47,661 bases of DNA. It comes from Candidatus Goldiibacteriota bacterium (GTDB lineage: Bacteria; Oederibacteriota; JAAXVQ01). The stretch covers positions 1 to 47,661 of the forward strand of contig JAGVPM010000087.1 in the NCBI GenBank assembly GCA_020052235.1, given 5' to 3'. Below are positions 19,886-47,661 of the stretch, piece by piece; within the stretch, counting starts at the first letter, position 1; each line of letters opens with the position of its first letter. Below the pieces are notes generated by a model that did not search any database, was not told the origin of the DNA, and saw only the letters and a list, made by a program, of their open reading frames with translations. The translations under genes were made by a program, and so were the position numbers.

Positions 19886-19915
19886 AAACGATCTGGAAGC
19901 TCCAACATTAACCGG

Positions 19916-20140: not shown

Positions 20141-20153
20141 TAAACTTGGTTAA

Positions 20154-20195: not shown

Positions 20196-20214
20196 ACGGA
20201 TGAGGAGATCAAAG

Positions 20215-23080: not shown

Positions 23081-23116
23081 ACGCCACCCTCCTCAAAATC
23101 CCGTTTATAATTAAAT

Positions 23117-23146
23117 TGTAGAGACGCAAAATTTTGCGCCTCTACA
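23117..23146. repeat. Perfectly placed palindrome at the BatA-like gene end
   Basis: TGTAGAGACGCAAAA (23117-23131) and TTTTGCGCCTCTACA (23132-23146) form a nearly perfect hairpin with one mismatch. The stop codon of the upstream VWA gene (23142-23144) is inside it. The same core occurs as an interspersed repeat in other bacteria, so it is probably a mobile repeat rather than a terminator, though it could act on the transcript. Confidence 0.75.
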
Positions 23147-25291: not shown

Positions 25292-25338
25292 CCCATGTCA
25301 CCTGTGCTTATTTTAGCGTATTTTAAATTATTCCGCAG

Positions 25339-25887: not shown

Positions 25888-25973
25888 GATTCCTTCTCCT
25901 TTTATCTGTAGGTAAAAACAGATTAAAGCCTATATTTGCCCATCAAATAACCGAAGTCAAGAAAAATACATTT

Positions 25974-26888
25974 TCATTGCCGGAAAGTAAAGCGGATGAT
26001 AATGGAACCCTTTTGTTCCGCCTGTTTGACGTTTAAGGGCAAAGGGGCAAAAACATATTTCTTCAACGCTTCAATGGCCAGCTTGTCCAATTCCGCGTAG
26101 CCGGAGGTTTTTTCCACAAACAAACGATCCCCCACTTCTCCGTCCGGATTCACCACAAAACTGATAATCACTTCGGCTTCAACACCTTTTTCTTCCAACC
26201 AACGGGGCATTGCCGGTTTTTCGCGGTGCAAAATTTCACGATTTTTCACTTCACCAGAAATCAAGGTATCCCGGCTTAAACTCAAGTGTTTGGCCGCATC
26301 AACATTAGTGACTTGTTTACGCTCAGACTTGACTTTTTTAATGATCAACTCGGGCTGTTGAAATCCGCGGCGGGAAATGTCCGGCCCAAAGTCCGCAGGC
26401 GGCAACTCATCGGGAACCACCTTGGTGTCGAGTTCCTGAAGGGGCGAAACTTCGGCATGCACCAGATTGATCTTTTTTATGGGCATGGGAGCGAGATTGG
26501 GTGCTGGAGCTTTTTCAAGTTTAAGCTTCGGCAAAGCCGCCAAATGCGTCAAGTCGGCTTCCGTAACCATATCCTGGGCCGGCAATGCATGAACACCCAC
26601 CACTTTCTTAAACGAGGTCTTTTCCAATTCCGCCATGGCCGCGTCAATGGATTCCGCCTTGGTCGGCGGCGGGAGCGGTTTGACTGGGGCGGTTAATTTA
26701 TTCATTAATTTTTCAATTTCCGTGGGTTTGGGAGCTTCTTCCATATATTCGACTTCGGTGAGTTTCAATTTCTGAGAAGTAGGGCCTATTTTCCCCGAAC
26801 CGAACATGCTCAATAAAACAGCATGTAAAACCAAAGAACCTATAAGGGTTATCTGCAAACGTCCATTCGGGCGGTCCAAAAAAAACAT
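25974..26888 (-). CDS. TonB-family energy transducer
   Basis: The 304-residue protein has a short cytoplasmic start, one transmembrane helix (about 12-30, ITLIGSLVLHAVLLSMF), a long Pro/Lys/Glu-rich periplasmic spacer, and a TonB C-terminal domain (about 222-304). The domain shows EVIISFVVNPDGEVGDRLFV, a Tyr/Ala-rich helix DKLAIEALKKYVFAPLP, and a final strand GSIIIRFTFRQ. It would transmit proton-motive force from ExbB/ExbD to an outer-membrane partner. ACGGAG precedes the ATG. It follows an ExbD gene by three bases. No TonB-dependent receptor gene is in the window, so the partner is probably not a classical receptor. Confidence 0.9.
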   Translation of the reverse strand: MFFLDRPNGRLQITLIGSLVLHAVLLSMFGSGKIGPTSQKLKLTEVEYMEEAPKPTEIEKLMNKLTAPVKPLPPPTKAESIDAAMAELEKTSFKKVVGVHALPAQDMVTEADLTHLAALPKLKLEKAPAPNLAPMPIKKINLVHAEVSPLQELDTKVVPDELPPADFGPDISRRGFQQPELIIKKVKSERKQVTNVDAAKHLSLSRDTLISGEVKNREILHREKPAMPRWLEEKGVEAEVIISFVVNPDGEVGDRLFVEKTSGYAELDKLAIEALKKYVFAPLPLNVKQAEQKGSIIIRFTFRQ

Positions 26889-29590: not shown

Positions 29591-32500
29591 CTATCCCTTC
29601 GACTGACTCTGCAAAATCCGTTGCAGCAATTTAATTCTTTTCTGAGCCGCATCCCGCCACTTGGGTTGGCGGGTAACTTTCATCAGGCGTTGATAAACTT
29701 CCACGGCCGAAGCCCATTTTTTGGCTTGTTCGTACACCGAGGCCAAGTCCACCAACGCCAGGGAATATTCTTCTTGTTTGGGGTCGCCCTTTTCCATCAG
29801 GCGTTTCAAAACCGCTTCACGCTTCTCGTTATCTCCCTGTTCCTGGTACATACCGGCCAATCCGAGCCACGTTTTTAAAACCAACTCCTGATCCTTGCCG
29901 GTTTCCAATTTCCGCAATGCCGCCTCGGTCCCGGCGCTGTTTTTTTCAGCTGCCTGCATCAAAACCAGCCGGGAAAGACTAAGGTCCGCGTTGGAATCTT
30001 TGGGATAGGTCTGGGTCAACTTGGTATAATATTCAATTGCTTTGGCGGGCAACTGGATTTTTTCATAAGTCACTGCTGCGTTATACCAAGCGCGGGGCTG
30101 ATATTCCTTCAACGCATATTGCTCGGCACAAGCCGCAAAATGTTCGGCCGCGGCCGGGTAACGCTCCAATTGAAATTCAGTGGAGGCCAAACGTAACATC
30201 ATTTCGGGAGCCAACTCGTGCTGCGGATAGTTCTTCAAGAAAGCCTCGGTCTGTTGGGCGGCGTTTAAAGAGTTCCCCAACTGCTCCTGACAAACAGCCA
30301 GATAATATTGCGCATTGGGGGTCCGCGGGCTTTTGGTATAGGTTAATACAAATTGCAAAAACTCATGGACCCCTTCCGCGTATTTTTCTTTTTGATAGTA
30401 CGCTTCCCCGATGCGGTACTGAATATCTTCAGCCAAATTGGAACCCGGGAATTTTAAAATAAATTCGTGAAAAACCGGAATGCTGTTTAACCGGTCGGCA
30501 ATCCGGTAAGACGCGGATTCAATGGCATTTTTAGCCTCTTTGGCTTCATCCGTTTCGGGATAAGTTTGCAAAATCCGCATAAACCGCGGGATGGCATCCT
30601 CGTCTTTTTGTTCATTGTAATACGTTTGGGCAATGCGCAATTCATACGCCTTGCGGTCTTTGGAATCCGGGAAACGTTTCAGCAGATCGTCATAAACATT
30701 CCTAGCCTGGGTATTTTCACCGCCCTGAAAATAAGTATCCGCCATCCAGGCCAAGGCTTGGCTGGTCTCGGGCGCTTGCGGATATTTCCGCACCAAGTCT
30801 TTCCAGGTTTCCACGGCATCCAAATAAGCTTTATTCAAATAATGCGCCCAAGCGATTTGAAACAAAACCCTCGCGGCCTCGGCATGATCCCCCGCGGAGG
30901 TAAGCCATAATTGATACGCATGGATGGCCTCGGGATATTGCTGTTGGTTGAAAAACGCATGCGCCCGGAGCAAGGCAATTTCATTTTGCATATATTCGGG
31001 AACATTTTTACTTTTTAACAAACGCTCGCTTTGCGTCAGCACCGAGGCATAGTCCTGCAATTGAAAACCGCACCAAACCAAACCCGCCCAAACATAAATT
31101 TCAACTTTACCGCGAGGATAAAAATTCAACGCCTTGTGATAATATTCACGCGCGGCCGTATAACTGGCTTGATGGTAATACGCTTCCGCCATAAGCAGCC
31201 GCACCCAAGCCGCGGTTTCGCGGTATTCCAAAGCCGGTTCCCGGTTGGCGATATCTTTTTCCAACAAAGCCCATTGTCCCACCAACGTTTGGACATCTTG
31301 CCGGTTCATGTAGAATTCCGCCAATAAGTACAAAGCCAACTCGGCCAACGGATCTTTCGATTCCACCAGCACGCGCACCGAACGAAAAGCCAGCGTTTCC
31401 CGCCCCGCCTGCAGATACGCCCGTACTGCCAAAACATGCGCAAGACTATCCGGATGCCCGGTCTTTTGAAAATATTCATTTAAGGTTTTAGACGCCTGCT
31501 CCCAATTGCTTAACATCGAATGCACATACGCTAATTTCAACAGCCACTCGGAGCGGTAGGCTGAGCGCAATTCCAAAGCACTGGAATAGGCATTGGCCGC
31601 TTCGGCCAGGCGGTTCAGGTTCAAGGCGGCTTCCGCCAATACACTTTGCACCAAAGCACGGTCATTTTCCGGTAAGCGTTCCAGAAGCGGCTTCAATTTC
31701 GGATATCCGTCTAAAACCCCGTCAAAGCGTGCTTGCGACAGCCACACCAACAGCCGGATCAAGGCTGCTTTGGGTGCAAAAGGACTTTGCGGATACTTCG
31801 CCAGGTACTGTTCACTCAGCTTCCCTGCCGACAAATAATCTCCGGATTTATAAAATGCCCGGATTTTAAAATAACCTGCCATCAGCTTATGCGAATCTTG
31901 ACGCGCTTTTTCCAGCGCTTGATTATAGGCTTCAATTGCCGTGAGAAAACGTCCCTGCGTTTCCAAAATCGAACCCGCGAACAACTGAGCCAAAGGATCA
32001 TCGCTGAGTTCTTCGTACAGTTTTAGGGCATCGAATGTTTGGCCCTGATATTCCTTCATGATGCCGAATAAAAATTTGATATCCGGGTCCAGCAAGGCGC
32101 GCGGGTAGGCTGCCAGCAGATTGGTGAACATCTGCCGGGCTTCGTTGAGGCGTTGTAATTTCAAATTGGTTTTTACCAGTGCCAGACGGATCTGCGGAAA
32201 TAAAAAATCAGCCTGCGAATCGCGGGTCAAATCATTCAGGATATCCGCGGCTTGAGCATAATCCCCCCGGTTGTACGCCAACTCGGCTTCACGAAAATAA
32301 GCGCTGACTTTCAAGGGACCCTTAGGAGCCGACGCCGCCAATCCATGATACAAGGGGCGGGCAATCTCCGCCGAACCTGCGAGCCGGTAATTTTCCGCCA
32401 AAAAAAATTTGGCGGCCAGCTGATGCTCGCGGTCCGCTTCCTGGGTCAGGTATTGATTCAGACTTTGAATGCTTTGGGGATAATTTTTAGATAAATAGGC

Positions 32501-32668
32501 ATGAATGGCATTTTGCCAGGTTTCGGCGGCCAAAGTCGTTTGCGCCCAGGCTGCGGGAATTCCTCCCGTGCCGAGCAAACACGCAACCAGTATTCCAATT
32601 ACCGTGAATCGATTGTGCCGGGAAATCAACGAATTACTCCAATCCCTAGTCATTACGACAGACGCCAT
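29591..32668 (-). CDS. Large secreted TPR-repeat protein
   Basis: The 1025-residue protein has an N-terminal signal or anchor (about 20-42, FTVIGILVACLLGTGGIPAA then WAQ) and is otherwise a solenoid of TPR and TPR-like helices, with many A-x-x-x-Y-x-x-L and KYP/FP turns such as LVRKYPQAPETSQALAWMAD, LLKRFPDSKDRKAYELRIAQ and EAFLKNYPQHELAPEMMLR. The C-terminal part resembles YbgF/BamD-type repeats. It is most likely periplasmic or bound to the outer membrane and scaffolds other proteins. The ATG has a weak site, and a second start lies five codons on. The gene abuts the OmpA-like gene by 3 bases. Confidence 0.88.
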   Translation of the reverse strand: MASVVMTRDWSNSLISRHNRFTVIGILVACLLGTGGIPAAWAQTTLAAETWQNAIHAYLSKNYPQSIQSLNQYLTQEADREHQLAAKFFLAENYRLAGSAEIARPLYHGLAASAPKGPLKVSAYFREAELAYNRGDYAQAADILNDLTRDSQADFLFPQIRLALVKTNLKLQRLNEARQMFTNLLAAYPRALLDPDIKFLFGIMKEYQGQTFDALKLYEELSDDPLAQLFAGSILETQGRFLTAIEAYNQALEKARQDSHKLMAGYFKIRAFYKSGDYLSAGKLSEQYLAKYPQSPFAPKAALIRLLVWLSQARFDGVLDGYPKLKPLLERLPENDRALVQSVLAEAALNLNRLAEAANAYSSALELRSAYRSEWLLKLAYVHSMLSNWEQASKTLNEYFQKTGHPDSLAHVLAVRAYLQAGRETLAFRSVRVLVESKDPLAELALYLLAEFYMNRQDVQTLVGQWALLEKDIANREPALEYRETAAWVRLLMAEAYYHQASYTAAREYYHKALNFYPRGKVEIYVWAGLVWCGFQLQDYASVLTQSERLLKSKNVPEYMQNEIALLRAHAFFNQQQYPEAIHAYQLWLTSAGDHAEAARVLFQIAWAHYLNKAYLDAVETWKDLVRKYPQAPETSQALAWMADTYFQGGENTQARNVYDDLLKRFPDSKDRKAYELRIAQTYYNEQKDEDAIPRFMRILQTYPETDEAKEAKNAIESASYRIADRLNSIPVFHEFILKFPGSNLAEDIQYRIGEAYYQKEKYAEGVHEFLQFVLTYTKSPRTPNAQYYLAVCQEQLGNSLNAAQQTEAFLKNYPQHELAPEMMLRLASTEFQLERYPAAAEHFAACAEQYALKEYQPRAWYNAAVTYEKIQLPAKAIEYYTKLTQTYPKDSNADLSLSRLVLMQAAEKNSAGTEAALRKLETGKDQELVLKTWLGLAGMYQEQGDNEKREAVLKRLMEKGDPKQEEYSLALVDLASVYEQAKKWASAVEVYQRLMKVTRQPKWRDAAQKRIKLLQRILQSQSKG

Positions 32669-32760
32669 GGTGCCTTACCGCAGTTTCGTCCGAACTACCA
32701 TATTTTAATTGGCTTGAGTCGATGAATTCCTTGATCATTCGGTTGCCGAATCCGGACGGA

Positions 32761-34494
32761 TCATTTCACTGTGGGTTTGTTCTCTTTCCGGAGATGCTGT
32801 TGGTTGAACATTTCCTCAACGTCTTTTGAATTCATCTGCATTTCATAAACCTTGACTTTTTCCTTCTGTTTTTCAAGATCTTCGTACCGGACAATATCCT
32901 CGGGTTTAACCGGCTCGGTTTTGGAAACCGCAGGAGCAGCTTCCGGAGCCGCAGTGTCTTTGGATGCCTCCAAACCCGAGGGTATCAACACTTTCAATTC
33001 CACCCGGCGATTGGCGGCTTGGCCCTCGGGTGTCTTATTGCTGGCCACGGGACGCGTGTCGCCATAACCTATGGGAATTAAATTATCCGGATTAAACTTA
33101 AACCGGCCTTTTAAATGTTCTTTCACGGCCTCAACGCGGGTTTGCGAAAGCTTCAAATTCGCTTTGGATTTTCCTTGCGCATCGGTATGGCCTTCAATTT
33201 TAACCTTAATGGCCGGGTACTGTTCCAACACCGAACCAAAGCGGTCCAAAGTCGTAAAAGATTCTTTCATTAAAATGGCTTTCCCGGGTTTGAATTGAAT
33301 GGCCGGGGCTTGGCCCAGTTTGATTAATTCATTCACGCGGTTAATTTCGTTCTTAGCCCGCTCAATGTCATCCTGCAGTTTGCTCAACATTTCCTTAAGT
33401 TTGGTTTCTTCCCGGGAGCGCGCCCGGCTTAATTCCTGCTCTCGCTGGGCTGCCATATTTTCTTCGGCTGTAATAACCAAGGTTTGCGGTTTTGGAGGAA
33501 GCACAATGACCTTGGTAGGCGTCGCCTGCTGGCCCCAACTGGCAGTCAGCGAAAAACGATGCGTCCCGTAGGTTTTTGTTTTTTCTACATAAGAAGGCAG
33601 CGCAAAAGCATAATCAAATTGCAACTGCGTCATGTTCAGCTGCGGGAAGGCATAGCGTCCGGTTAACCCTACTGTAAATTCCGTCGAGTTTAATCCCAAG
33701 CGCGCGGCCGCCAAGCCCTGAAAAAACCAACTCTCGGCGCCAAAACGGAACGTATTCGTGTTTTGCGCATAACTGCGATTGGCCCATTCGGTGGACAGCA
33801 ATACGCTGTCCAAAGCTGTTTTTAAAGATGTAAGATCCTGACTCCAGGAAAGACCAGCCCGAAAATTGCGCGGAACCTCTTCATAAGTAGTCACCCCTAC
33901 ATCAGCAGGTATGATATTTTCCACACACAGGCCCGCGACAAACTGCCGGCGCAAGGGATACAACAACGCCAAATCAGCCGTAACTCCGGTTTTCGACAGG
34001 GGTTCGGTATAATCGTTGCCCGGAACATTCCAATTCAAAATTTTAAAATTACCGCCTACGTGAATGGTTTTGGTTAGATAATTCAGCGTCCTGGCATACG
34101 CAAAATTAAAAGTATTTTCATGATATAATTCAGAATTAAATTGGGACCAAGAAGTGCCGAAATATCCAATCTCCGGATTAACCGGGACGGACGCGGCCAC
34201 ATAATTATAACTAAGCGCATCACGCTGACCAGTGAACAAACGGCCTTCAAAACCCCAAAATAAATTCGCGTACATGGTGGTGATTTCATAACGCCGCATG
34301 GCAGCCAAGCCCGCGGGGTTCCAATTGATGGTATTGACGTCGTCGGCCACGGCCACAAACGCACGCCCCAAACCGGCCGGACGCACACCAGCGCCATAAT
34401 CAAAAAAATAGCCCATGGCCGAAGAGACCATCAGCCCCATGGCCAAGGCCAGCCCTATTCCTCTCAATATGTTTACCCTGAAGCGCACCATCAT
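32761..34494 (-). CDS. PorV-like outer-membrane barrel fused to an OmpA domain
   Basis: The 577-residue protein has a signal peptide (about 1-28), then a beta-barrel (about 29-320) opening with GAGVRPAGLGRAFVAVADDV then NTINWNPAGLA, the hallmark of the PorV/PorQ/UPF0164 family. A helical linker (about 343-393) with many Glu/Arg heptads follows, then an OmpA C-terminal domain (about 397-505) with GHTD (435-438), LSQTRVEAVKEHL and NRRVEL (495-500), expected to bind peptidoglycan. The last 70 residues are charged. PorV proteins are part of type IX secretion or similar export. The fusion links an export-type barrel to the cell wall. It overlaps the upstream gene as ATGA. Confidence 0.85.
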   Translation of the reverse strand: MMVRFRVNILRGIGLALAMGLMVSSAMGYFFDYGAGVRPAGLGRAFVAVADDVNTINWNPAGLAAMRRYEITTMYANLFWGFEGRLFTGQRDALSYNYVAASVPVNPEIGYFGTSWSQFNSELYHENTFNFAYARTLNYLTKTIHVGGNFKILNWNVPGNDYTEPLSKTGVTADLALLYPLRRQFVAGLCVENIIPADVGVTTYEEVPRNFRAGLSWSQDLTSLKTALDSVLLSTEWANRSYAQNTNTFRFGAESWFFQGLAAARLGLNSTEFTVGLTGRYAFPQLNMTQLQFDYAFALPSYVEKTKTYGTHRFSLTASWGQQATPTKVIVLPPKPQTLVITAEENMAAQREQELSRARSREETKLKEMLSKLQDDIERAKNEINRVNELIKLGQAPAIQFKPGKAILMKESFTTLDRFGSVLEQYPAIKVKIEGHTDAQGKSKANLKLSQTRVEAVKEHLKGRFKFNPDNLIPIGYGDTRPVASNKTPEGQAANRRVELKVLIPSGLEASKDTAAPEAAPAVSKTEPVKPEDIVRYEDLEKQKEKVKVYEMQMNSKDVEEMFNQQHLRKENKPTVK

Positions 34495-35444
34495 TTAATA
34501 ACCACCATGGTCCCTGAAATGAAATGCCCTTCCACTTCAATTTGATACAAGTATAAGCCGCCCTCCACCCAATGTCCGTTGGAATTGCGGCAATCCCAGT
34601 AACGGGTATTATCCAACGTCACGATCGGATATCCCGTGGGATCATAAATTTTAATGCGAATCTTGGAATCGGGCGAATTGGTGTAAAAATTAAAATAAGC
34701 CCTCTGCCCCAACACCGGTTTAACCGGATTAGGCGTAACATAACATCCTTTGTTGAAATCAAAGGGATAATGGAAAAAATCCATGACCATTTGACCCACA
34801 AAATCCTGAGTCGAAAGCACACCGCGCAAATCCGCGGCAAAATAAAGAAACGCATTGGTTCCTTGTATTAAACGGCCAGGCAAGGGATAAGTGCCCAGCC
34901 CGCTGACACTGGCCACCACGCGATCATTACGTTCCGCATCCCATGTGGGAATACGGTCGACATCCGAACGATCATAGACCGTGCCCCAATACCGCAGCGT
35001 ATTGTCGTAAAACCCCAACCCACCCGCAACGACGGTTACGGATTGAGGTGTGCTCCAAGTGGAGATAACACCCAGATCGGTTGGATAGACTTGCCAATAG
35101 AGGGGGATTTTTTCCGCCGGAGTCGTGTACCCGCGCAGACCGCGATACAAGCCATCCGGGGTTGCATTGGCCGTGCTGGTCAAACGCTGGCGATTATCCG
35201 AGTACAACTCAATGCCCCAATTCATATTCTGGTTCCCGGAAAAATTAAGTTGTAAATAAAAAGGCATCAGGGTCAAACCCTGATTGCGGTTCATTTTGGG
35301 TAAGGATAAACTGCCGTTAAAGGTATAAGCAGGAATGGTCAGACTAAAAGCATCTATAGTCACAAATGAAGCCTGCACCGGGCAAACTGTATAAACCCAG
35401 AACAAAGCGGCCAAAAGTAAAATTTTCCTGTAATTAACGCGCAT
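34491..35444 (-). CDS. Secreted protein with FlgD-like C-terminal domain
   Basis: The 317-residue protein has a signal peptide (about 1-25), a beta-rich body I do not recognise, and a C-terminal immunoglobulin-like region (about 235-317) with KIRIKIYDPTGYPIVTLD and then HWVEGGLYLYQIEVEG and GTMVVIK. That end resembles FlgD-type Ig domains and type IX secretion sorting domains, in which a YxYxI/V strand and a basic end are usual. It overlaps the PorV-OmpA gene by four bases, suggesting that the two act together. Function unknown. Confidence 0.78.
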   Translation of the reverse strand: MRVNYRKILLLAALFWVYTVCPVQASFVTIDAFSLTIPAYTFNGSLSLPKMNRNQGLTLMPFYLQLNFSGNQNMNWGIELYSDNRQRLTSTANATPDGLYRGLRGYTTPAEKIPLYWQVYPTDLGVISTWSTPQSVTVVAGGLGFYDNTLRYWGTVYDRSDVDRIPTWDAERNDRVVASVSGLGTYPLPGRLIQGTNAFLYFAADLRGVLSTQDFVGQMVMDFFHYPFDFNKGCYVTPNPVKPVLGQRAYFNFYTNSPDSKIRIKIYDPTGYPIVTLDNTRYWDCRNSNGHWVEGGLYLYQIEVEGHFISGTMVVIK

Positions 35445-35459
35445 GTTGTATTAACTCCA

Positions 35460-36224
35460 TCAATTCATACGGGCCGCATTAAACGGTACCATTTTCTCAG
35501 AACTTTTGGGCACACCCACGGCTTGGTTCCCATACAGCGTATCCCAGAATATTCGCACATGCAATTCACCCACACCTGGAAAAATCGGCGCAGACCCGTG
35601 CGCGCTCATGGACAGGATATCCTTGGGAAACACAGGTTGTTCGCTTCTAATATCCATTTGCCATACGCGTTTGCCTTGGCTGTCGTTCACCCACGCCAGA
35701 CCAAACGGAGCCAAATGCAAAACACCCTGGTTTATAACCTGAACATTCACTACCAAAAGTCCATCGGGCATGAGTTTGGATTCCACGCTCGTAATTTCAC
35801 CCGAGGCCCGGCGCTCGTTGTTAAACCGGATAATAATCGGCATGCCCATCCGCACGTTTAATGAAATCGGCGCATTTACCTTTTCCCCGGCAAACAACGA
35901 AAGAACGCATTCCCCCTGGGCATCGCTCCCGCACTTTAAAATAACAATTATACGTTGATGGGCTTTCGGCTCTAATCTAATCTTGGCCGGTTCAACGGAA
36001 CACCAGTTTGCCAAAGTTTCTGTTAACGGTCCCGGCTTCCGGTATTCAAGCTTAAAAGTCACATCTTTAGCTGTATCCTGATTATTGGTAACTTCTATTT
36101 CCGCGGTATGGTTTTGTCCCTTTTGCAAAGATAAAATCAACATTTCCGGAGAAAAAGAAACTTGCCCCCAAACGGTTTCCATCAACCCCAAAAGCACAGC
36201 CAATGACATCCAAACGCTTTTCAT
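35460..36224 (-). CDS. Secreted chaperone-like immunoglobulin-fold protein
   Basis: The 254-residue protein has a signal peptide (about 1-20, ending VWG) and a mature part starting VSFSPEMLILSLQKGQNHTA, with AEIEVTNNQDTAKDVTFKLE and IRLEPKAHQRIIVILKC. This is the strand pattern of periplasmic pilus-chaperone N-terminal domains (a P-x-x-x-x-L-x-P-G-x-s-x-x-x-x-V-x-N type layout). Two cysteines (around 91 and 114, 8 in all not seen) may form a disulfide. It is first in the region 4 operon. A TATAAT is 7 bases before its ATG, so either the start lies nearly at the 5' end of the transcript or a second promoter exists. Confidence 0.72.
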   Translation of the reverse strand: MKSVWMSLAVLLGLMETVWGQVSFSPEMLILSLQKGQNHTAEIEVTNNQDTAKDVTFKLEYRKPGPLTETLANWCSVEPAKIRLEPKAHQRIIVILKCGSDAQGECVLSLFAGEKVNAPISLNVRMGMPIIIRFNNERRASGEITSVESKLMPDGLLVVNVQVINQGVLHLAPFGLAWVNDSQGKRVWQMDIRSEQPVFPKDILSMSAHGSAPIFPGVGELHVRIFWDTLYGNQAVGVPKSSEKMVPFNAARMN

Positions 36225-36630: not shown

Positions 36631-37243
36631 CTACGCTGCCTGAGCCGTACTCTTAAACAACGAACGGCGGTGGCGTTCCAATTTCTCCAAATCCAGCTTC
36701 ACCGGGAACTTGTTCGCCGTATCCGCGTACACGCCAAACGTTCCAGCTCCTCCGGACACCAGCAGCGCTCTGGGCACCCAGATCACTCGCCCAGCGCCCA
36801 CCGACGCTTTCTCCCAGTTTCCCAGCGCTTGCGCATTCATCACCTTCATGTTCCCCATCAATTCACTAAATGCCAGCACCGACTTCTCCGCCTCGATCCT
36901 GGCTTGCGCTGCTTCCGCTACCTTCCCAGAAGCTTCCAGCTCATCCGCCAGCCGTGTTTGCGCCTTCAATACCCTCACGATTGATTTCATGAACCCTTGG
37001 TTCAGCCGCCGACTTTCCGGTTTCCCGGCGTACTTCAAATAGGCTTGCACCAGTGGGCTTTTCTCAACACTCAGCAATTGCTTCACCTTCGATTCGCCCA
37101 GCTCCGACACTTTACTCTGCAGGTACCCAAGCGCATCCGCTCCCTGCCACATCTTTTCAGTGCCAATCAGTTGCGCCACGCCGCTGTAGAACTTCGCTTG
37201 CGGTGCTTTTAAGGCTTCAGCACGTTCGCCGGTGTATTCACGC
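36631..37243 (-). CDS. C-terminal segment of the giant protein (frameshifted)
   Basis: The frame codes for about 203 residues from the shift site to the stop at 36631. Directly after the apparent stop of the main segment (TGA at 37238-37240) this frame reads REYTGERAEALKAPQAKFYS followed by GVAQLIGTEKMW, protein-like and continuous with the preceding ...TLPKGVQA. The 182 residues from an internal GTG are helical and end HRRSLFKSTAQAA. There is no ribosome-binding site at that GTG. I conclude it is the true end of the giant protein, out of frame by one base. No domain is recognised. Confidence 0.7.
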
Positions 37244-40200
37244 GGCTTGCACGCCCTTTGGCAACGTGGTGCCCTGCAGCGCTTCCAGGGTCAGTTTCTG
37301 CTTGCTCGGAGCCACTACTTCGTACACCACGCTCCGCGCATACGCCACATCCCCGACTTTTTCCGTGGCCACTTTCCCGGTTACCACCGCATGCGTGTTT
37401 TCCGTCAAATCTTTGGCCATTTCACGCACACCGGCTACTGTGGTCCTGGCCTGATGGTTCACTTCTCCCAACAACGCTGCGCCTATTTCCGCAGACAGCG
37501 GGCTGCTCTCTCCGGCATTCACACGCGCTCCGGCTTCCAGCACGCTTTCCAACAGTCGCAGTCTGGCAATCAGCCCCGCCGCTTTCCCTTGTTTTTCCAG
37601 TTCGCTTCTTGCAGCACTCACGCGATTTTTGATATGGGCGTACGACTTCATGCCCATCACATTTACTTCTTGTCCTACTTGCAGCCCTGCGCTTTCCACC
37701 CCGCGTTGCGCACTTCCCGCCACGTTTTGGCCGGACATCAGCTTCAGCAACCCGGCGCCTACCACGGTTTGTTTCGTGCCCACAAACTGCCCGCTTTCCT
37801 GCGCCACTTGCTTCACCAACTCGGCCACGCTTCCGGTTTTCACGGCCGCGCTTTCCAAACCGCTTCTCATTTCCTGCAACCGCGCATCCGCGCCTTGGTC
37901 CACTTGCTTGGACAATACGCCGTTCAAGCTTTCCAAACTTACATCCGCGCCTTGCTTGAGTTCGCTTTCCACTTCTTGCAGGTATCCGGCGGCCAATTCC
38001 AGTACCTCCGCTCCATTGACGCCTACTTTGCCCAAGTTTTGCTTCAACCATTCATCATGGCTGATGCCACCCTGCAAATTCTTGACTTCGGCCGCGTTGG
38101 TTTCAACATCCGCTTGGTATTGCTGTTCCCGGATGCCTGCATAGTGTTTATTCGCCTGCTGCCCGGCGATCACGCCGAACAAAAAGGCTTTCACCTGATA
38201 ATTCAAACGCGCCAGACTGGCTTGGATGGTTCCGTCAACGACCGGTGCCGGATTGCTTACAGCTGCCAGCAGAACATCCGGCACGTACACCGTGGCCCAC
38301 GCGCCTTGATCCGCCGTGCTTTGGCTGCCTTCCGTGTACGCTCCGAACAGCATGCCTTTGAAGATTCTTTTCAATAGTCCGCCTTGTTCCGACAAACCGC
38401 AGAACCTCAAACCTTTGATTCCGTATTCTTTAGCTGCGGTGGCATCCGGCACTACCAGTAAACTCTTCATGGCTTCCAAGCGCGGATTATCATCCGACAC
38501 TTTCACACTTACTACACTGTCGGCAAACACCGTCACGGCTCCGGCCAACAGGCTCACGCCCACCAACACCACAACCGCCAAACCTTTAACCAGGCCGCGC
38601 ATATTGGCCAAAGTTTGCACTTCATTCCCAAACAATACAATCTGCAATCCGTTTTGCAGCAGCCGCAAGGGCCAGAAACGCAATCCCTTCACCGGTTCGT
38701 TCACGCCTTCAGGCAACAGATTGCGCAAGCGTTCCAATTCCCGTTGCACTGCTTCCTTCCGTATCTGTGTCTTCTGATCACCCAAAGCAAAAACCAACGC
38801 CCCATGCTCATAGGAAGCTGTATCGAGTCTATGCGTCACATCCGCGTCTCCGCGCGGCGACAAAGTCGTATTCCCCCCGTAAACATCACTCGCCCGCCCT
38901 GTATTCACCACCAAAACCCAGGTATTCGCCGAGACACCTTGCCGGATATTCCGAATATATAGATCCACATCCGCCGAGCGCATGCTGGCGACATTGACGG
39001 ATAGATCAATATCTCCCGGCATTCCCTGGAAAGACTTGGCTTGACGGGCGTCGGCGCATAATGTCGCATGCACCCGGACCGGGCGCCCGCCCAATTCCAT
39101 TTCCACAATATTTTGCAACACAGTCAATCCGCCATCCAAAGCGCGCTGGATACCCGGATACGCCTTGAGTTGCTCCTGCACCTCGGGTTTACTGTCAAAC
39201 CCGACGAGTTTCCCGCTTTCCCGGAATATATTGCCAGTCAACAAATCGCGTAAAATAACCGGCCCGACTCCCGGCCGAATCACTAAAATCCCATCCACCG
39301 GTGTATCCCCCAGCAACAACCGGGTGCCCATAATGATATTTATTTTATCCCGGTCCGCTTGTGTCTGGAGCTCACCAAGCGCGCGTTCAAATTCTTCCGG
39401 ATTTTGCGTGGCCAAGTATCTTTCCGGAAAAACCGCGATCTCCATCCCAGCCTGGCGAAGTTGCGTTAGATTCCTCTGTACCCCCGCCAGCCACGCGGCC
39501 ACTTTGTCCCGCATCACATTCATAACCGAATCTTGAACCGCGACCACGGCCGCGCCTTCCTGCATCACATCAACTACTTTAACCGGTATGGATTTACCGC
39601 TTACGGCACTTTGCAGTTGCACTGTGTCCCAAGTGCGTGTTTCGCCCGCCACTGGTGCTTCCTTCTCGGGATTGACTTGCACGTGCTGTTCATGCCCGGC
39701 CACAGCTTCGGCGATCATGTGTTCCAAATCCTGTTGGTTCCACTTGCCGGAACCCAGCATCAGCACTGGGGCTACTCGCGCCAGGAACTTCACGATCTCC
39801 ACGTCGCCGTAGGTGGTGATATCTGCGGTGGTGCTGGCCTGAAAGGTACTCGGGAGCACATGGTCTTCCAAGGAGAGGCGCAGACAGAAATCCGCCAGCA
39901 GTCGCAGGGCCGTGCGGGCATCCATGCGGGCCGGGTAATGCTCGTCGCCGACCCCCAGCCTGTCCCCCACCACGTCAGAGTCCACATTAATATATGCGTC
40001 CTGATGCTGCGGCCGGCCGGCATAGGCAAAATATTTATCCAAACCCACCTTAATGTGTTGCAGCACATGCGCATGCACTTGTTTTTCCGTAACTTGCGCT
40101 TCACCACTCAGACCCTGGGATTCAAAATACCGGGAGCGGGAATCAAACACCCAAATATGCCGTTTGATGAGACCTGCCGAGGCCAGGATCCAATTAAGAT

Positions 40201-43200
40201 TGTTCATAAAAATATATTTTTTCACGCCCTGAAACCATTCGTACAGGGAGTGCGGCTTGCCTAGAGACTCAATTTCCCGGGGGAAACTGGCATCTGTCAC
40301 TTTACCTTCAAAATCAAAATGTTCGTCGAGAAAAAGCTGCGTATTGCCGCTGGCAGGCAGTTCACCCCGGGCCACGGCTTCCTGGGCATAAGGCACGGCA
40401 TAAGCATGATCATCGTAATAATAGAAACTAACGATTTTACCGTCCGGGCGCCGGAAGCGCTCCACCACATGTGTTTTCATTTTTTGATGATTGTGAGGCA
40501 GGCCCTTTTCGAGGTCCTGCCAAGAACCCAGGATGAGCTCCGGCTCGCGCCGGTCCTGGCGCCCAAAGTCGCGGGAGCGCCAATAGCCCAGGTGCGTTTG
40601 GGCATCGGTTTCCACAAACTCAAAATGCTCCCGGTCAAACGCATCCAAATGCGCGGCCAGGTCCGGGCTGTGGAGCAGTGCTTGCGGGTAAAGACGAAGC
40701 TCGGCCGCAGCTGCGTCCAGGGTAACGCGCACGGGTTGTGCAGCAACGGGCTCAATCCGGCGGAAGCGCAACAGTAAGGCGCGCAGCCCATTATCTCCTA
40801 AAGCGGGGAGGGAAAAATAGGTTCCATACTCCGCCAGCGTCGCACGCCAGTGGCTGGAGTAATTCAGTTCATATAATTCGTGTTTCAAAACCGCCACTTG
40901 AACCACCCGCGGCAAATTTAAAAAACGTGCATCCAGTTCAATCCGTCCCTTGCGGCGGTCCGCCTGGCCGATCAGAATCCCCTTCCAAAACTGTTTCCAA
41001 CTCACGGACGGAGACAAAACGCCAATGGCCGGACGGGTATAACCCACCGGCAGCTTGGAAATCCGCTCCACTTCCGAAAGCACGGATTCAATTTGCTCTT
41101 CAGCCATGCTTGGATCCAAAAACATATTTTTACCCGCGAATAAGCGAAAAACATAAAACAATCGCGGAAAATAATTTAAAACCAAACCCAGGCCGCTGAA
41201 AATCCCCCATCCCAAGGCGGGATTCAGTATCAAATCCGGCGACCCGAAAGAAGTCAAAATCATTCCCACCACCAACGCACCAAGTCCTGCCAGCAACATA
41301 CGCAGCGGCGAGACGTGCAGCCTGCCGGGCGTGGATGCTTTCCCTTGGGCAACTGCTTCTTCAGAATTAAAAATTTTCGCTCCCTGATCCGGCAGGAAAA
41401 TATGCGCGTCCGCTTCTGTTTTCAGTTCTCTGATTTCCATTGGATTTGGGTAGCTATCCAAAGCTTCTTTGGTCAGCACAAATGCTTGTCGGGCTAGGGA
41501 GCTGTCCTCCACAGCCGTTTTAATTGGATTCATAAAATATCCAAAGGCACTTTTATTGAGCGTAGAAAAAACGACGGTTAAACTTTTAAAATCCTCCCGG
41601 TTGCGCAGCAAACTCCCCATATTCGGTTTTCCGTCCGGCCGCACTTTTAAACCCGAATGATTTATTCCCATGTAAACCAAAATTTTCGCCTGTGAATTTT
41701 GCTTAACGATGTCCGCTACTTTTCCAGCCATTACTTCATCTGTGATATCCCAATTCGGCACAACGCGGTAGTTGCCCCCGTCTCCCCTGGGATCCGGAAA
41801 AATAATGGGAATGCCTTTTTTAACTCCCGCACTAATGACCTCAGCCAGCCCATCAACATCGCAAATGGATTTATAATGCCGGAAAATGGCCTGTTTAAGC
41901 GGCATGGCCTCCCCGGTTTGAATATAATGGTCCAACGCCGGCCGCGCGCTTTCATTAAGTTCGATGACCAAATGCGTCACAGGTGTGTTTTCAATGATAT
42001 TGACCGCTTGTGCCTTACTGGCCCGGTCATAATGAATTTCCCCCAGCGTAATCACCTGTACACCTTCGGAAAATTTTTGGCGGATGAATTCAGTAGGTTG
42101 GAAACCGGCTTTTTCCCGGATAAATTCTTGGATTTCGCCGGTTTTTTCCAGGATGCGCGTTTTTTCATGCCCGGCCGCAGGGAGAAATTCTCCAGTATTG
42201 GGATGGGCCAAAACCGCCGGTGATATAATCAGCAACAAAAAGGTTACAATCATCGGCAGACGTAAAAAATTCAAATTGAAAAATTTCCGCAACCTATTTA
42301 CGTTGAAAACATCCTTGGCCCAGATGATTGACGCGGCAAACATATCCATTCCGTGCGCCAACACTTCACTGACTAAACCGTTCCAGATCGTATATCCCAG
42401 CGGCGCGCGCTTGCCTGCCGCCTGGGCAGTTTGCGCCGCTTGCGCGTAAGTTGCCAGCGACTTGCCAAACGCGCTCAATATCCAATCCACTATGGTCTGT
42501 GTCCAACGATGAGCATACTGATCGTGCGCCCGCACTAATAATGGAACTTCGGAAATGACTTCATTGGGCTTGGCCGGATTGACCATAGCGCCCAATTGCG
42601 GGTTATATGCGCCCACAGGATCACCCAAGTGCGCAAACATCCGTACGCCGTGCTGCTTCGCCAGTTGGATAAGCACCCATCCGGTCTTCACCAGGCTCCA
42701 CAGGAAAAAACCGCCCACGAATATATTGAGAACGGGGATAGAAAACGCGACAACCGCCAAACCACCTGCCAGCGCCATGATTGCGGCTGACCCAGGCAAA
42801 TGCAGGGGTTGAAAAGAAGAATTTTTCGTGCTTGGCGCCACGCCTCCCGGTATGAACAACATACGTTCCGGCGTATATGTCTGGCTTAACAATGCAGTTT
42901 TCAACCAAGCATTGCTTAGGGTAACCGGCAATTGACCTTTCCAGGCATGCACACCCTGGCTGAATGCCTGATATACGGCTTGTATTTCTTGGCTCATTTG
43001 ATATACAACCGCGGTGAATACTACAGCTAAAATTTCGTTTTGCTGCTTTTGAAGATCACCCACCTGCAACTCCGAAATAAATTTTCGCAAAACCGGTGAG
43101 TCCAAAGGATTTCCTTTGCTTTGCAGGGCACGCAATAAAGCTTCGGGAGTGCCGTCCTGCTTTAATGCTTGATTAATTTGCCCCAGGTAATAATATCCGC

Positions 43201-46200
43201 CTTCAAAGCCGGCCATGGGTTGTGACAACTGGCTAAACGTGCTTAATCTGTCTTGAACCGGTTGAAACGGCATGCCGTAAATTACGCCAAACGCTTCTTC
43301 CAAAATATTCACCTGCGCGGTTTGATACCTTTCCACACGCTGGTTGGGCTTATATTCATCCAATCGGAACTTGGCAAAATCCGCAACAGCTTGTTCGGGT
43401 TTGGCCGAGGCGCAGAGCATGAAAACGTGCCGCCGTACCCGCTCAGGTGCGGACTGCAACGAGTTCCAATCCCGACGCTTCGAACCCTGATATTGTTTGG
43501 CCCAGCGCTGAATTTCCTGTTCCGTCCATTCCACTGCCCCCCGCGCACTCAAAGGAGTTGTCCCACGGTCTGATGTTGACGCACCCACGACTCCGGCTAG
43601 GGAGTCCGGTGCCATGCCTTCCTCATCTTGCGGTATATCATTCAACTGCCGGATTAACTGTGCCAGCCGCTGCGGGTCCCGCAAAGTTCGGATGATCGCC
43701 GCAGCTGCCAAAACGCCCTGTTGTTCAAAAGTTTGCTGGACTTGCACAGCTTGCCAATGCGCTTCATTCGATCGCAGACCATTTTCCATAAGTTCTATCT
43801 CAATCATTTCATGCAGCAGATCGCCCAAGGCCACGGGGGCGGCCGTCAGACGATGGCGCGGAAAAGCCACTTTGAATTGCCCGTCATGCCTGAGAATAAG
43901 GCCACCAAGGGTGCTGCCCGCTTTATCCAAGCGCGATTCCTTGACCGAAACCAACAAGATCCGGTCTGCCATGCGGTCTATTTGTTCCTGCGTCAACCCC
44001 GCTGCCAGCAATGATTGCAATGCCGTACGCACGGCCTCCCGGTCCGCTTGAGTTTGGGCTGCTTCCAAGCGTTGCAAAACCCGGCCCCACCCGAAATAGT
44101 CAACCACGGCTCCAAAGCGGGCTTTCATTTCTAAATAGAGTTCACGGTGCCCTGTGTGGGCAGCGCCTACTATGCCGCTTCCATTGAATTTGACGCGCGG
44201 CACCTTTCCCGCTGAAATACTTGGCGCCACTTCCAAGGCGATCGTAGCTTCTTCCGCAGCATGCTGCGCCAAAACCTTGGCCACATTTTTTTTCGATTCC
44301 TGAAATTTATGCTCCAGATCCTCAAGAATTGCGGCAACAGACACACCACCAGGAAAAATCGCAGAACCGTATTGACGGCTAAACTCGTCCGTCACCTGGT
44401 TCACATCCAAATCCAAAAACATTTCCAAACTTTGTAAAATTTGGAGTTGAATTACCTGGCTTTCGTACTTTGTAAAGGGCCGGTCCAAAAGGCCGGCATC
44501 CTGAAAATACATTTCCGTTTTTTCAAGCAGCTTGCCCGAAAAAGCCTGTTCGGCCAAATCCGAAACATCTCCCCGGCTGATTCTTTCCATTTGCTTATTT
44601 TTTTCCAGCCATACGAAAACGTCCTGCATGCTCATAACCTGGCCGCGAATAAGCAAGGACCAACCCATTTTAACGAGTCCCATAACATACGCCAGGCCCG
44701 AAATATCGGTAATAGACCGAAAAACAGCCTGATATATTCTTGAAATTACCGGAATAATGCCCTCCGGCCGGAGCTCGCCCAAGGTTCCGCCAAAATACGA
44801 ATCCGTATCTATTTTATAGATCTGCCCGCCATCCTGGGTAATCATAAGATTACCGAAATTCGGATTAATAAACAAATCCGTATGCCCCAGCATTACTTCG
44901 CTGGCCATGATGCGCCCGATTTGGCGCAACACATCTCCCTCGATTTCCCAGCGCGTGCCTTTCAAACGAACACCGGGAGAGCCTGCTATAACCCGCTGCA
45001 TATTGGTGTCCGCTGAAATAACTGTTTCCGGAAGTTTTTCCTGAACATACACGAATCCGGGCTCTCCTTGCGGCAGCATACTCGGATCCAAATATTGAGT
45101 CAGAAGGTCGTGTAAAACACTGTCCTCTGCATAAAGCAGCACGCCGCGCGGAGCGTTTACATTTATTTGGCGGAGGACACGTTCGGCCACAGCCGCCAAT
45201 AGCGCGCGCCGCGGAAACGCAGCTTTAATGAAATAAGGACCCGCAACTACTGCGCCGGTTATGCCTTGTTGCGCGGGAAGAATTTCATATTCTTGAATAG
45301 CTTTGAGAACATCCTCCGGCTGCAAGGAAAGCTGTGCTTGAATAAACCCATTGGGAATCCATGCCTTGCCCTTGGAAATGCGGACAGGACTTGCTGCTTT
45401 TTCAACATCGTTTAATGACGGGGCCCGTCTGAAATACGAACTGTATTCATGCCATGTAGCCTGCCAATGATTCCCAAAGCGCACTTCATAAAGTTCATGG
45501 ATCAGGACTGCCCGCTGCACGGCCAAAGGCAATGAGAGGAATTTCGGATGCAATCCGATTTTTCCGTGATGCGCATACCCCAGACGAATACCGCGCAATC
45601 TTTGGATTTGAGAATCCCTGTTCGGCAACACATAGAAAGTAGGGATTTCCAGGTCATCCGGCAAGCCTCCGCGGCGCCGGATATCTGCAATTAAATCCTG
45701 TAATTGAACATTAATGCGCGCCGGATCCAAACGGGGTTTGGTTCCAGTCCAAAGTCTGAATGCATAGTATAAACGCGGGAGATAATTTATGCCCCAGGCC
45801 AGTAAGCCAACACCCAACACCGACAACGTAGTAATAATCGCATCCGGAAACAACCCCACAGTCCAACCGCTCAACAGCAGCATGCTGATTAGAGCCGCAC
45901 CCAAACGGCGAAACGAAACGCGCAACTCTCCGAAATTTGTGCTTGGCAGCTGCTCTCGCACTCTCGCCAATTCGCGCCCGACGGTGCCGCCGACGGGATT
46001 TTTAAAGTAGGTGGGTTGGCCCGCCCAGAGACGCTTAAGATTCGCTGCCAAGTCATTGGGCTTTTTAAATACCCCGGCACCGAACAATTTATACCCGAAA
46101 TGTTGAACCACCTCTCCGGCATACCAGAACCAAAGCAACAAAGCGCCCATATCGGTTATATCGATATTTTCAAAAATAAATTTTCCGGCAACGATGGCCT

Positions 46201-46477
46201 TGAGACCGTACACCAAGCTGAGGAAAATCGCCGCGATAATATTTGCATTTTGCATAAACCGGAAAAAACCGGTTATGATTATTTGCTGCCGTGGGCCTGC
46301 TTTGTCAAAATAAATTAAACGCACACTCCAGAACGCCAAGACCGTAATCATTACCAAATACATACCCGCGACAAAAAAACCATTAACCGCACCCACGGCC
46401 AACAATAATGAAATGCCCGTGATAACTACCACGGGGTTGACTATCCCGGACAAAACCGAACGAGCCAGCGGGCCCTT
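37238..46477 (-). CDS. Main segment of a giant multidomain membrane protein
   Basis: The frame codes for about 3,080 residues; numbering is from a TTG at 46495 which is not a real start, because the protein is entered from the previous frame near 46475. Layout: membrane helices 12-215; repeat cassette A with HELYE at 333 (187-358); kinase-like fold (about 410-575) with LGHTDLFINPNFGNLMI near 533-549 and a following IDTDSYFGG; HEMIE region near 895; helical region; membrane helices about 1225-1260 and 1415-1440; ChaN/EreA-like hydrolase (about 1465-1700) with LGEIHYD; cassette B with HELYE near 1872 (1722-1890); UPF0489-like fold (about 1955-2290); nitrilase-like domain (about 2299-2580) with Cys near 2480; a helix near 2620; and a helical C-terminus to 3085. 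Only this kind of large Omnitrophota-type protein comes to mind; the function is unknown. Confidence 0.88.
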   Translation of the reverse strand, partial: KGPLARSVLSGIVNPVVVITGISLLLAVGAVNGFFVAGMYLVMITVLAFWSVRLIYFDKAGPRQQIIITGFFRFMQNANIIAAIFLSLVYGLKAIVAGKFIFENIDITDMGALLLWFWYAGEVVQHFGYKLFGAGVFKKPNDLAANLKRLWAGQPTYFKNPVGGTVGRELARVREQLPSTNFGELRVSFRRLGAALISMLLLSGWTVGLFPDAIITTLSVLGVGLLAWGINYLPRLYYAFRLWTGTKPRLDPARINVQLQDLIADIRRRGGLPDDLEIPTFYVLPNRDSQIQRLRGIRLGYAHHGKIGLHPKFLSLPLAVQRAVLIHELYEVRFGNHWQATWHEYSSYFRRAPSLNDVEKAASPVRISKGKAWIPNGFIQAQLSLQPEDVLKAIQEYEILPAQQGITGAVVAGPYFIKAAFPRRALLAAVAERVLRQINVNAPRGVLLYAEDSVLHDLLTQYLDPSMLPQGEPGFVYVQEKLPETVISADTNMQRVIAGSPGVRLKGTRWEIEGDVLRQIGRIMASEVMLGHTDLFINPNFGNLMITQDGGQIYKIDTDSYFGGTLGELRPEGIIPVISRIYQAVFRSITDISGLAYVMGLVKMGWSLLIRGQVMSMQDVFVWLEKNKQMERISRGDVSDLAEQAFSGKLLEKTEMYFQDAGLLDRPFTKYESQVIQLQILQSLEMFLDLDVNQVTDEFSRQYGSAIFPGGVSVAAILEDLEHKFQESKKNVAKVLAQHAAEEATIALEVAPSISAGKVPRVKFNGSGIVGAAHTGHRELYLEMKARFGAVVDYFGWGRVLQRLEAAQTQADREAVRTALQSLLAAGLTQEQIDRMADRILLVSVKESRLDKAGSTLGGLILRHDGQFKVAFPRHRLTAAPVALGDLLHEMIEIELMENGLRSNEAHWQAVQVQQTFEQQGVLAAAAIIRTLRDPQRLAQLIRQLNDIPQDEEGMAPDSLAGVVGASTSDRGTTPLSARGAVEWTEQEIQRWAKQYQGSKRRDWNSLQSAPERVRRHVFMLCASAKPEQAVADFAKFRLDEYKPNQRVERYQTAQVNILEEAFGVIYGMPFQPVQDRLSTFSQLSQPMAGFEGGYYYLGQINQALKQDGTPEALLRALQSKGNPLDSPVLRKFISELQVGDLQKQQNEILAVVFTAVVYQMSQEIQAVYQAFSQGVHAWKGQLPVTLSNAWLKTALLSQTYTPERMLFIPGGVAPSTKNSSFQPLHLPGSAAIMALAGGLAVVAFSIPVLNIFVGGFFLWSLVKTGWVLIQLAKQHGVRMFAHLGDPVGAYNPQLGAMVNPAKPNEVISEVPLLVRAHDQYAHRWTQTIVDWILSAFGKSLATYAQAAQTAQAAGKRAPLGYTIWNGLVSEVLAHGMDMFAASIIWAKDVFNVNRLRKFFNLNFLRLPMIVTFLLLIISPAVLAHPNTGEFLPAAGHEKTRILEKTGEIQEFIREKAGFQPTEFIRQKFSEGVQVITLGEIHYDRASKAQAVNIIENTPVTHLVIELNESARPALDHYIQTGEAMPLKQAIFRHYKSICDVDGLAEVISAGVKKGIPIIFPDPRGDGGNYRVVPNWDITDEVMAGKVADIVKQNSQAKILVYMGINHSGLKVRPDGKPNMGSLLRNREDFKSLTVVFSTLNKSAFGYFMNPIKTAVEDSSLARQAFVLTKEALDSYPNPMEIRELKTEADAHIFLPDQGAKIFNSEEAVAQGKASTPGRLHVSPLRMLLAGLGALVVGMILTSFGSPDLILNPALGWGIFSGLGLVLNYFPRLFYVFRLFAGKNMFLDPSMAEEQIESVLSEVERISKLPVGYTRPAIGVLSPSVSWKQFWKGILIGQADRRKGRIELDARFLNLPRVVQVAVLKHELYELNYSSHWRATLAEYGTYFSLPALGDNGLRALLLRFRRIEPVAAQPVRVTLDAAAAELRLYPQALLHSPDLAAHLDAFDREHFEFVETDAQTHLGYWRSRDFGRQDRREPELILGSWQDLEKGLPHNHQKMKTHVVERFRRPDGKIVSFYYYDDHAYAVPYAQEAVARGELPASGNTQLFLDEHFDFEGKVTDASFPREIESLGKPHSLYEWFQGVKKYIFMNNLNWILASAGLIKRHIWVFDSRSRYFESQGLSGEAQVTEKQVHAHVLQHIKVGLDKYFAYAGRPQHQDAYINVDSDVVGDRLGVGDEHYPARMDARTALRLLADFCLRLSLEDHVLPSTFQASTTADITTYGDVEIVKFLARVAPVLMLGSGKWNQQDLEHMIAEAVAGHEQHVQVNPEKEAPVAGETRTWDTVQLQSAVSGKSIPVKVVDVMQEGAAVVAVQDSVMNVMRDKVAAWLAGVQRNLTQLRQAGMEIAVFPERYLATQNPEEFERALGELQTQADRDKINIIMGTRLLLGDTPVDGILVIRPGVGPVILRDLLTGNIFRESGKLVGFDSKPEVQEQLKAYPGIQRALDGGLTVLQNIVEMELGGRPVRVHATLCADARQAKSFQGMPGDIDLSVNVASMRSADVDLYIRNIRQGVSANTWVLVVNTGRASDVYGGNTTLSPRGDADVTHRLDTASYEHGALVFALGDQKTQIRKEAVQRELERLRNLLPEGVNEPVKGLRFWPLRLLQNGLQIVLFGNEVQTLANMRGLVKGLAVVVLVGVSLLAGAVTVFADSVVSVKVSDDNPRLEAMKSLLVVPDATAAKEYGIKGLRFCGLSEQGGLLKRIFKGMLFGAYTEGSQSTADQGAWATVYVPDVLLAAVSNPAPVVDGTIQASLARLNYQVKAFLFGVIAGQQANKHYAGIREQQYQADVETNAAEVKNLQGGISHDEWLKQNLGKVGVNGAEVLELAAGYLQEVESELKQGADVSLESLNGVLSKQVDQGADARLQEMRSGLESAAVKTGSVAELVKQVAQESGQFVGTKQTVVGAGLLKLMSGQNVAGSAQRGVESAGLQVGQEVNVMGMKSYAHIKNRVSAARSELEKQGKAAGLIARLRLLESVLEAGARVNAGESSPLSAEIGAALLGEVNHQARTTVAGVREMAKDLTENTHAVVTGKVATEKVGDVAYARSVVYEVVAPSKQKLTLEALQGTTLPKGVQAA

Positions 46478-47661
46478 TGAACTCGGGTTGCCCAAGCATT
46501 TTCTGAATTGCGGGCTTCGTGCCGACTTTTAACGTGACGATAACCGCAGTGGTTGCTGCAGAAATACTCGTGGCGAAATATAAGAATGGATTGCTGATCT
46601 GAAACACCAAAGCCAGAATGACCGCCCAACTTCCCGCCACGGCGATCAACCGGGTTCGATTGAGGCTTGCCACGGCCAGCAGCGCCTGGCCAATGGCTGA
46701 AACAGCCTTTCCCAATAAACGGTACCAGGCGACAGGGGCAACAACATCTTGAGCCGAAGATGTTGCCGGACCCGCTGTCAAAACATCCGGCACCAATTTC
46801 ACTTCCAAATTCCGCACTTCATTGTCTTTTTCGTTTTTCGCTACAGTCACTTCGGCTTTTGCAAAGTCGACGGCATATGTTTCATCGAACAATCCACTGG
46901 CAGTAATTTCCCCGTCATTTAATATCACTACCGTTTTTTCGGTTCTATCCTCCAACAGCGCAGGCAACTGAGCGTGTAAGAAATGCACAGTAAACTCAGT
47001 GACATCAAACAAAGCGCCATAGCCTTCTTCCGCTTTGTGCTCCGCCACCAATTCTGAAATCTGTTTGGGTGTAAGTTCCAGACCCTGGTCTGCGCAAAAA
47101 TCGGCTATTTTTTCCAAATCAAGCGGTTCCGTTTGCCGCGATGCTTCCTCAAGCCTTTTCCAAACATCCCATAGTGCATTGCCGTGCAGATACACAAACT
47201 GTTTGGAATCAACAGGCAGAGGAATTTCACCTGCTTTGAGGGAACTCACAAAAGCGGATTTACCCGCGCGTTGCGCATACGCGCCGAATCCCTGAATGAC
47301 CACTAAAAGCGGCCGCCCGGGTTTAAATAAATTTTGAAATTTTTTCAATCCGCTTTTTTTATAGGAAAGCCCGGAACGGGTCTTAAAAACATCCGAACCG
47401 GATTCAATTTCGCGCCGCGAAACACCGGCCTGCATCCAATCCAAATCCGCAATGCGGGTACGCGACAAAATTTGGTTAACCGCCCAATGCATGCCAAATG
47501 AAGCAATGAACATCAGGGGCAGGGACATGGACGTGAACAGCAAAGCTGCATTGGCACCGGTAATAAATAGTGCAGGCAGCCAGACCCGCAAAGGCGGTGC
47601 GCGGCCTTTGGCCAGCATCTGCGCAAAATGCAGACTAAAGAAAACAGGCCAGGCAGCCAGG
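46383..47661 (-). CDS. Upstream segment of the giant protein, open at the window edge
   Basis: The frame is open from the right edge of the window (in frame before the first ATG it reads LAAWPVFFSLHFAQ) and runs to a stop at 46383, but coding probably leaves it near 46475, where the next frame continues as KGPLARSVLSGIVNP. Two hydrophobic stretches are at about 10-30 and 33-50 from the first Met. Residues 104-121 read LLVVIQGFGAYAQRAGKS, a Walker A-like loop resembling the QGFGGAGKS of uridine-kinase-type P-loop proteins but with extra residues inserted. Two more hydrophobic helices lie near 320-375. The true start and the length are outside the window. Confidence 0.75.
   Translation of the reverse strand, partial: LAAWPVFFSLHFAQMLAKGRAPPLRVWLPALFITGANAALLFTSMSLPLMFIASFGMHWAVNQILSRTRIADLDWMQAGVSRREIESGSDVFKTRSGLSYKKSGLKKFQNLFKPGRPLLVVIQGFGAYAQRAGKSAFVSSLKAGEIPLPVDSKQFVYLHGNALWDVWKRLEEASRQTEPLDLEKIADFCADQGLELTPKQISELVAEHKAEEGYGALFDVTEFTVHFLHAQLPALLEDRTEKTVVILNDGEITASGLFDETYAVDFAKAEVTVAKNEKDNEVRNLEVKLVPDVLTAGPATSSAQDVVAPVAWYRLLGKAVSAIGQALLAVASLNRTRLIAVAGSWAVILALVFQISNPFLYFATSISAATTAVIVTLKVGTKPAIQKMLGQPEFKGPAGSFGFVRDSQPRGSYHGHFIIVGRGCG

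Follow-up and report, generated by a model that had tools for sequence, protein, structure and literature searches.

Constant Ends and a Variable Middle in Putatively Exported Giant Proteins of a Candidate Bacterial Order

The partial giant gene described here is likely a tail-bearing member of a family of putatively Sec-exported, membrane-threaded proteins with constant ends and a variable middle. We give this reading a probability of about 0.6, and with it the assignment of the coding unit to a single giant gene, of which it forms the 3' portion of about 3,700 codons. The window, i.e., the whole stretch of 47,661 bases that was analyzed, is the entire contig C109 of a 3.17-Mb genome bin that is 99% complete. 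The reading draws on a head domain that occurs throughout the order and is predicted to have an EreC-like fold, a tail that distinguishes headed giants from other open reading frames (ORFs), modules restricted to giants, the shuffling of these modules, and purifying selection. The giants of this order have constant ends, share modules whose order has been lost, carry many transmembrane (TM) segments, and occur in all eight of its genomes examined.

A giant coding unit cut by the contig end

A single coding unit at 36631-47661 (minus strand) is spread over three frames (A, B, and C) and truncated by the contig end. Based on codon-usage log-odds trained on the main frame B, the coding signal leaves frame A for B near 46,470, and B gives way to C near 37,240. 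An earlier note, made from the sequence alone, had described one leftward 11-kb coding unit, open at the edge and containing two frame shifts and at least four membrane regions, as a giant multidomain membrane protein whose domain order matched no family known to its author. The codon-usage signal and the single-frame relatives at B/C confirm the unit and place both shifts (the second being bridged in one frame by relatives), hydropathy gives at least five membrane clusters, and the lack of a described family is likewise supported. The frames, followed by the modules from the N- to the C-terminus, are as follows.

46383..47660, minus strand: 5' frame A, 425 aa, open at the contig end and coding to about 46,470
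37238..46495, minus strand: main frame B, 3085 aa, with the frame open up to 46528
36631..37227, minus strand: 3' frame C, 198 aa (182 aa as the ORF 36631-37179), continuing frame B in relatives
46184..46718, minus strand: membrane cluster of about six hydrophobic segments (by hydropathy), spanning the A/B frame switch
45344..45946, minus strand: HELYE cassette 1, two TM segments and an H-E-x-x-E-x5-H metallopeptidase-like module
44159..45358, minus strand: region called kinase-like, with a GHTDLFINPNFGN...KIDTD motif, without database support
43649..44131, minus strand: third HE-motif region (HEMIE)
42209..42832, minus strand: TM-anchored module with a conserved AHxxYAH motif and a later His, common to seven giants of four genomes
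41489..42208, minus strand: region called ChaN/EreA-like (GEIH...E...GINH), a weak resemblance
40754..41341, minus strand: HELYE cassette 2
39494..40741, minus strand: UPF0489/arginase-like module that keeps DDH and DEHxD metal motifs
38684..39661, minus strand: nitrilase-like module
37244..38758, minus strand: C-terminal module with one TM segment, full-length copies of which occur only near the C-terminus of giants
36634..36873, minus strand: family tail ending ...RRSLFKSTAQAA

The B/C junction is open in one frame in contig C451 of the same-genus genome G001, where the C-terminal module and the tail (55 and 62% identical to those of the window respectively; frame C, 62%) form one frame, and also in giants of two other genera (G004:C4, G004:C49, and G006:C14). 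Since these relatives read module and tail together, the B/C shift is a local indel and not a boundary between two genes. For the A/B junction, no intact relative was present among the sequences searched, and residues 1-277 of frame A have a 30% identical copy in G007:C85 (L140), about 570 aa behind a head module. The position of the gene at a contig end and its need for three frames might point to an assembly chimera or to several separate genes, but this is highly improbable, as the same modules and the B/C junction occur in single frames of independent assemblies.

Between the window and G001, codon positions 1, 2, and 3 diverge by 0.34, 0.29, and 0.57 respectively in the C-terminal module, and by 0.28, 0.22, and 0.48 in the tail. 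The third position thus diverges about twice as much as the other two, which argues for coding under purifying selection and, together with the 24-55% identity of long parts of frame B to modules in independent assemblies, against a chance origin of the 3085-aa frame. Two frame changes within 11 kb could signal a decaying gene, and one might regard the giants as a graveyard of captured genes, still open but decaying, in which the frame changes are real mutations and the catalytic sites of some module copies have degenerated. We consider this very unlikely given the excess of third-position divergence, the conservation of motif residues and of both ends, and the frames that, in several genomes, run open for up to 9,482 aa. 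A 9,269-aa giant in another genome (G004:C12:9046-39848; L024, L025) is frame-broken too, with its GAA-ending tail in an overlapping 1,013-aa frame; frame breaks may therefore be common in such long genes.

The genes immediately downstream of the giant (29591-36224), which lie on its strand, encode a fimbrial-chaperone-like protein and a protein with a FlgD/sorting-like end (both recognized by eye), as well as a UPF0164+OmpA outer-membrane protein and a TPR protein of 1,025 aa. Farther away, BatA/BatD-type genes with a von Willebrand domain (22028-26888) lie near a TonB gene (25974-26888), and a gene for a FIST-domain protein adjoins that for a methyl-accepting chemotaxis protein (18755-21408).

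Conserved head and tail

The giants start alike, with a tryptophan/proline motif, a basic stretch, and a hydrophobic core ending in FVFPYLTWAFE, followed by a head domain with the motif DLHCNYEVQ...VEG...FY..AD.RS...GGFHT. In head alignments of 13 and 58 rows, the DxH...E...GxE...FY..R...GGxH residues are invariant. A profile of this domain matched 112 copies in 8/8 genomes of the order (8-26 per genome), in line with about 112 giant ORFs of up to 9,482 aa, and matched none of the 37 other genomes of the phylum. The genome of the window has eleven heads, and in four cases the frame is still open where the contig stops. The head of the window member itself lies beyond the contig end, and no overlap was found between the window and the four head contigs of its own genome that are open at the 3' side.

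The head, modeled with AlphaFold over 438 aa from an alignment of 58 sequences, reached a mean pLDDT of 89.8. In a Foldseek search with this model, the erythromycin esterase EreC ranked first (probability 0.99, E 1e-3, with a TM-score of only 0.25), followed by EreA-like proteins of Bacillus cereus, with ChaN at rank 24; a PDB profile search with the head gave no match. The likeness to the superfamily of EreA/EreC erythromycin esterases and heme-binding ChaN lies in the predicted fold and in the conserved paired His motifs, Glu, and Arg, whereas the giant head has motifs of its own (DLHC and GGFH) and is fused to a signal peptide and a giant body. Judged by the model, the head appears to be EreA/ChaN-like and is not a proven member of that superfamily.

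At the other end, the giants share the pattern 'vP..ll...G...D.......R..LR....AA'. For 43 headed giants, the stop codon lies within the contig; [ASM]A is the C-terminus of 36 of these, compared to 0/119 other (background) ORFs. The seven exceptions include four with a similar tail and a final Val, and one whose frame is broken so that the following frame encodes the tail. A tail profile gave 50 matches in 8/8 genomes of the order, almost all of them where giant frames end, and the window unit carries this tail, ending in Ala-Ala. AlphaFold modeling of the C-terminal module plus tail (seven rows) gave a pLDDT of 45, which is unusable.

The Ala-Ala tail was observed in this order only, plus one Omnitrophota case ending in ASA. 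That protein (L151; 2,639 aa) has the head and ends in ...AASA, similar to the FCPU426 tails. The head extends farther: in a collection scan, 449 stretches encode head relatives, and in Omnitrophota, Elusimicrobia, Auribacter, and Theseobacter records it follows a signal-peptide-like start, often that of a giant frame. Such head-started giant frames beyond the order reach 16,199 aa, and the head sometimes makes up a protein of its own (about 490-635 aa). This co-occurrence of stand-alone and giant-front heads suggests that an exported stand-alone enzyme became the front of the giants.

Shared and shuffled modules

The modules of the window are common to headed giants and, outside of the window, were found only inside giant frames; those recurring include the HELYE cassettes, the TM-anchored module at 42209-42832, and the UPF0489-like, nitrilase-like, and C-terminal modules. 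Residues 906-1082 of frame B, overlapping the C-terminal side of the HEMIE region, also recur in the giant of G004:C12. The earlier note had proposed a conserved domain order as the mark of one family, which does not hold. Between giants of different genomes, neighboring shared segments were in the same order in 32 pairs and reversed in 15, and only 4 of the 32 same-order pairs retained their spacing. Judging from these comparisons, the giant bodies appear to be mosaics in which the ends are conserved and the module order is not.

The folds that the note had assigned to individual modules fared differently. The HELYE cassettes, read there as hydrolase-like, indeed resemble a metallopeptidase (proabylysin, E 0.0014), with HExxE-x5-H in place of the HExxH zinc motif, which is absent; HE is missing in one of the 11 copies aligned across giants. 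The nitrilase-like fold is upheld by profile comparison with nine stand-alone nitrilases (hhalign probability 77%, E 2.1e-5). The module shares this match and its aligned Glu and Cys with the nitrilase superfamily (PF00795), but it stays below the Pfam cut-off, is embedded in giants, and has Arg for Lys in three of four giant copies, one of which also lacks Glu and Cys; the window copy has the Glu-Lys-Cys triad positions (FPE, SKPE, and TLCAD respectively). For the UPF0489-like fold, the metal motifs are intact and a counterpart with 49% identity lies within the G004:C12 giant of 9,269 aa, whereas its best profile match is weak (peptide arginase, E 0.15) and no Pfam match to UPF0489 (PF12640) was found in the window. 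The putative kinase-like fold gave no match in Pfam or PDB searches, unlike other giants of the order, which have kinase-family matches. The ChaN-like stretch at 41489..42208 scored below the Pfam cut-off for ChaN (PF04187; 14.1 bits versus 27.7, E 0.049) and did not match the head profile in hhalign.

Other giants contain cytidylate kinase, glycogen debranching, HD, HTH, methyltransferase, LOG-like, NUDIX, rhomboid, SecY, and SecA-DEAD modules, as well as glycoside hydrolases (GH5, GH26, GH77/GDE, GH99, and GH130). The latter, along with the nitrilase triad positions and the UPF0489 metal motifs that the window retains, would fit an envelope-bound enzyme factory, in which a single membrane-anchored chain carries active modules that modify or break down a polymer of a surface or of prey; this is close to the published view of Omnitrophota giants (PMC10066038). 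We regard it as possible but rather doubtful: no glycosidase was found in the window, catalytic residues are lost in some HELYE and nitrilase-like copies, and many modules are of cytoplasmic type with no shared substrate logic. Such modules in relatives (cytidylate kinase, NUDIX, HTH, and methyltransferase) suit a purely external role poorly.

The same cytoplasmic-type modules (kinase, NUDIX, methyltransferase, HTH, and glycogen enzymes) behind an exported head, with rhomboid and SecY-SecA modules in some giants, could instead belong to a multi-payload polyprotein that delivers them into another cell, perhaps after proteolytic processing. This is unlikely, as neither a known secretion family nor a known toxin family turned up and no host is on record. 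Cutting by signal peptidase was considered and rejected, since cleavage-like motifs are not enriched after isolated internal TM segments (47, versus 48/204 in the control before the TM segments).

Putative export and relation to known giants

In the favored constant-end, variable-middle reading, family members open with a conserved signal peptide of the Sec type, followed by a head of predicted EreA/ChaN fold. The body is a mosaic in which membrane segments alternate with divergent enzyme-like modules, and a conserved tail with a C-terminal Ala-Ala closes the protein. Sec would export the giant, whose signal-peptide cleavage and topology are predicted from sequence; the membrane segments would anchor it, and its soluble modules may face the periplasm or the outside. 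A factor for export, quality control, or processing may recognize the tail. Modules would be exchanged between family members by in-frame recombination, giving each cell a varied set of giants, used on neighboring cells or polymers. On this sequence-based view, the giant scaffold probably faces other cells or polymers.

In four genomes, a SecY-like domain is followed about 300-700 bases on by a SecA-DEAD-like part within one giant (G004:C4, G003:C297, G007:C62, and G005:C13), and the same genomes have ordinary secY and secA genes. The pair is a possible built-in export channel. More tentatively, several candidate phyla might share one giant-export system in which the signal peptide and the EreA/ChaN-like head are fixed, the tail is fixed in some lineages, and the body is varied by in-frame module exchange; in some genomes, the SecY-SecA pair in one giant might serve as a dedicated export channel.

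Giant ORFs are already known from Omnitrophota (Seymour et al., 2023; PMC10066038), among them one encoding 39,678 aa in Ca. Velamenicoccus archaeovorus, and predation or adhesion has been proposed as their role (PMC10066038; PMC12057145); PMC12057145 cites a preprint on them (West-Roberts et al., 2023). They share with the giants of the window order very long frames (>20 kb in PMC10066038; 11 kb for the window unit, cut by the contig end, and up to 28 kb in order relatives), multiple TM helices, and few recognizable domains, the latter two being features of the window unit as well, and giant ORFs in Omnitrophota records start with the same kind of head. They differ in their host. The relatives of the window are deposited as 'Candidatus Firestonebacteria' (G001, JAAXVQ) or 'candidate division FCPU426' (G002, JAUVAV; G003, JAUXBQ; G007, JAFGIQ), with JAGLMY (G006) as a further record, so the genus and order of the window are not Omnitrophota as named there, and Omnitrophota as the host is not upheld. 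Further, giants have been called poorly conserved in the literature, whereas constant ends define a family here. No paper on the head domain in Omnitrophota was found, and the constant ends are apparently undescribed in the literature searched, the main preprint (West-Roberts et al., 2023) being outside its scope and priority being uncertain.

Polymorphic toxins and adhesins combine constant delivery parts with a variable payload. The giants may resemble them by analogy, in the logic of constant ends and a swapped middle, with no shared sequence family shown.

With one head profile across phyla and a shared tail in the order, the giants become a family that can be defined, counted, and compared. 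Head and tail are two short parts whose function could be probed in laboratory strains with no need to produce the whole protein, and the constant-end family offers a way to approach the unexplained giants of uncultured bacteria.
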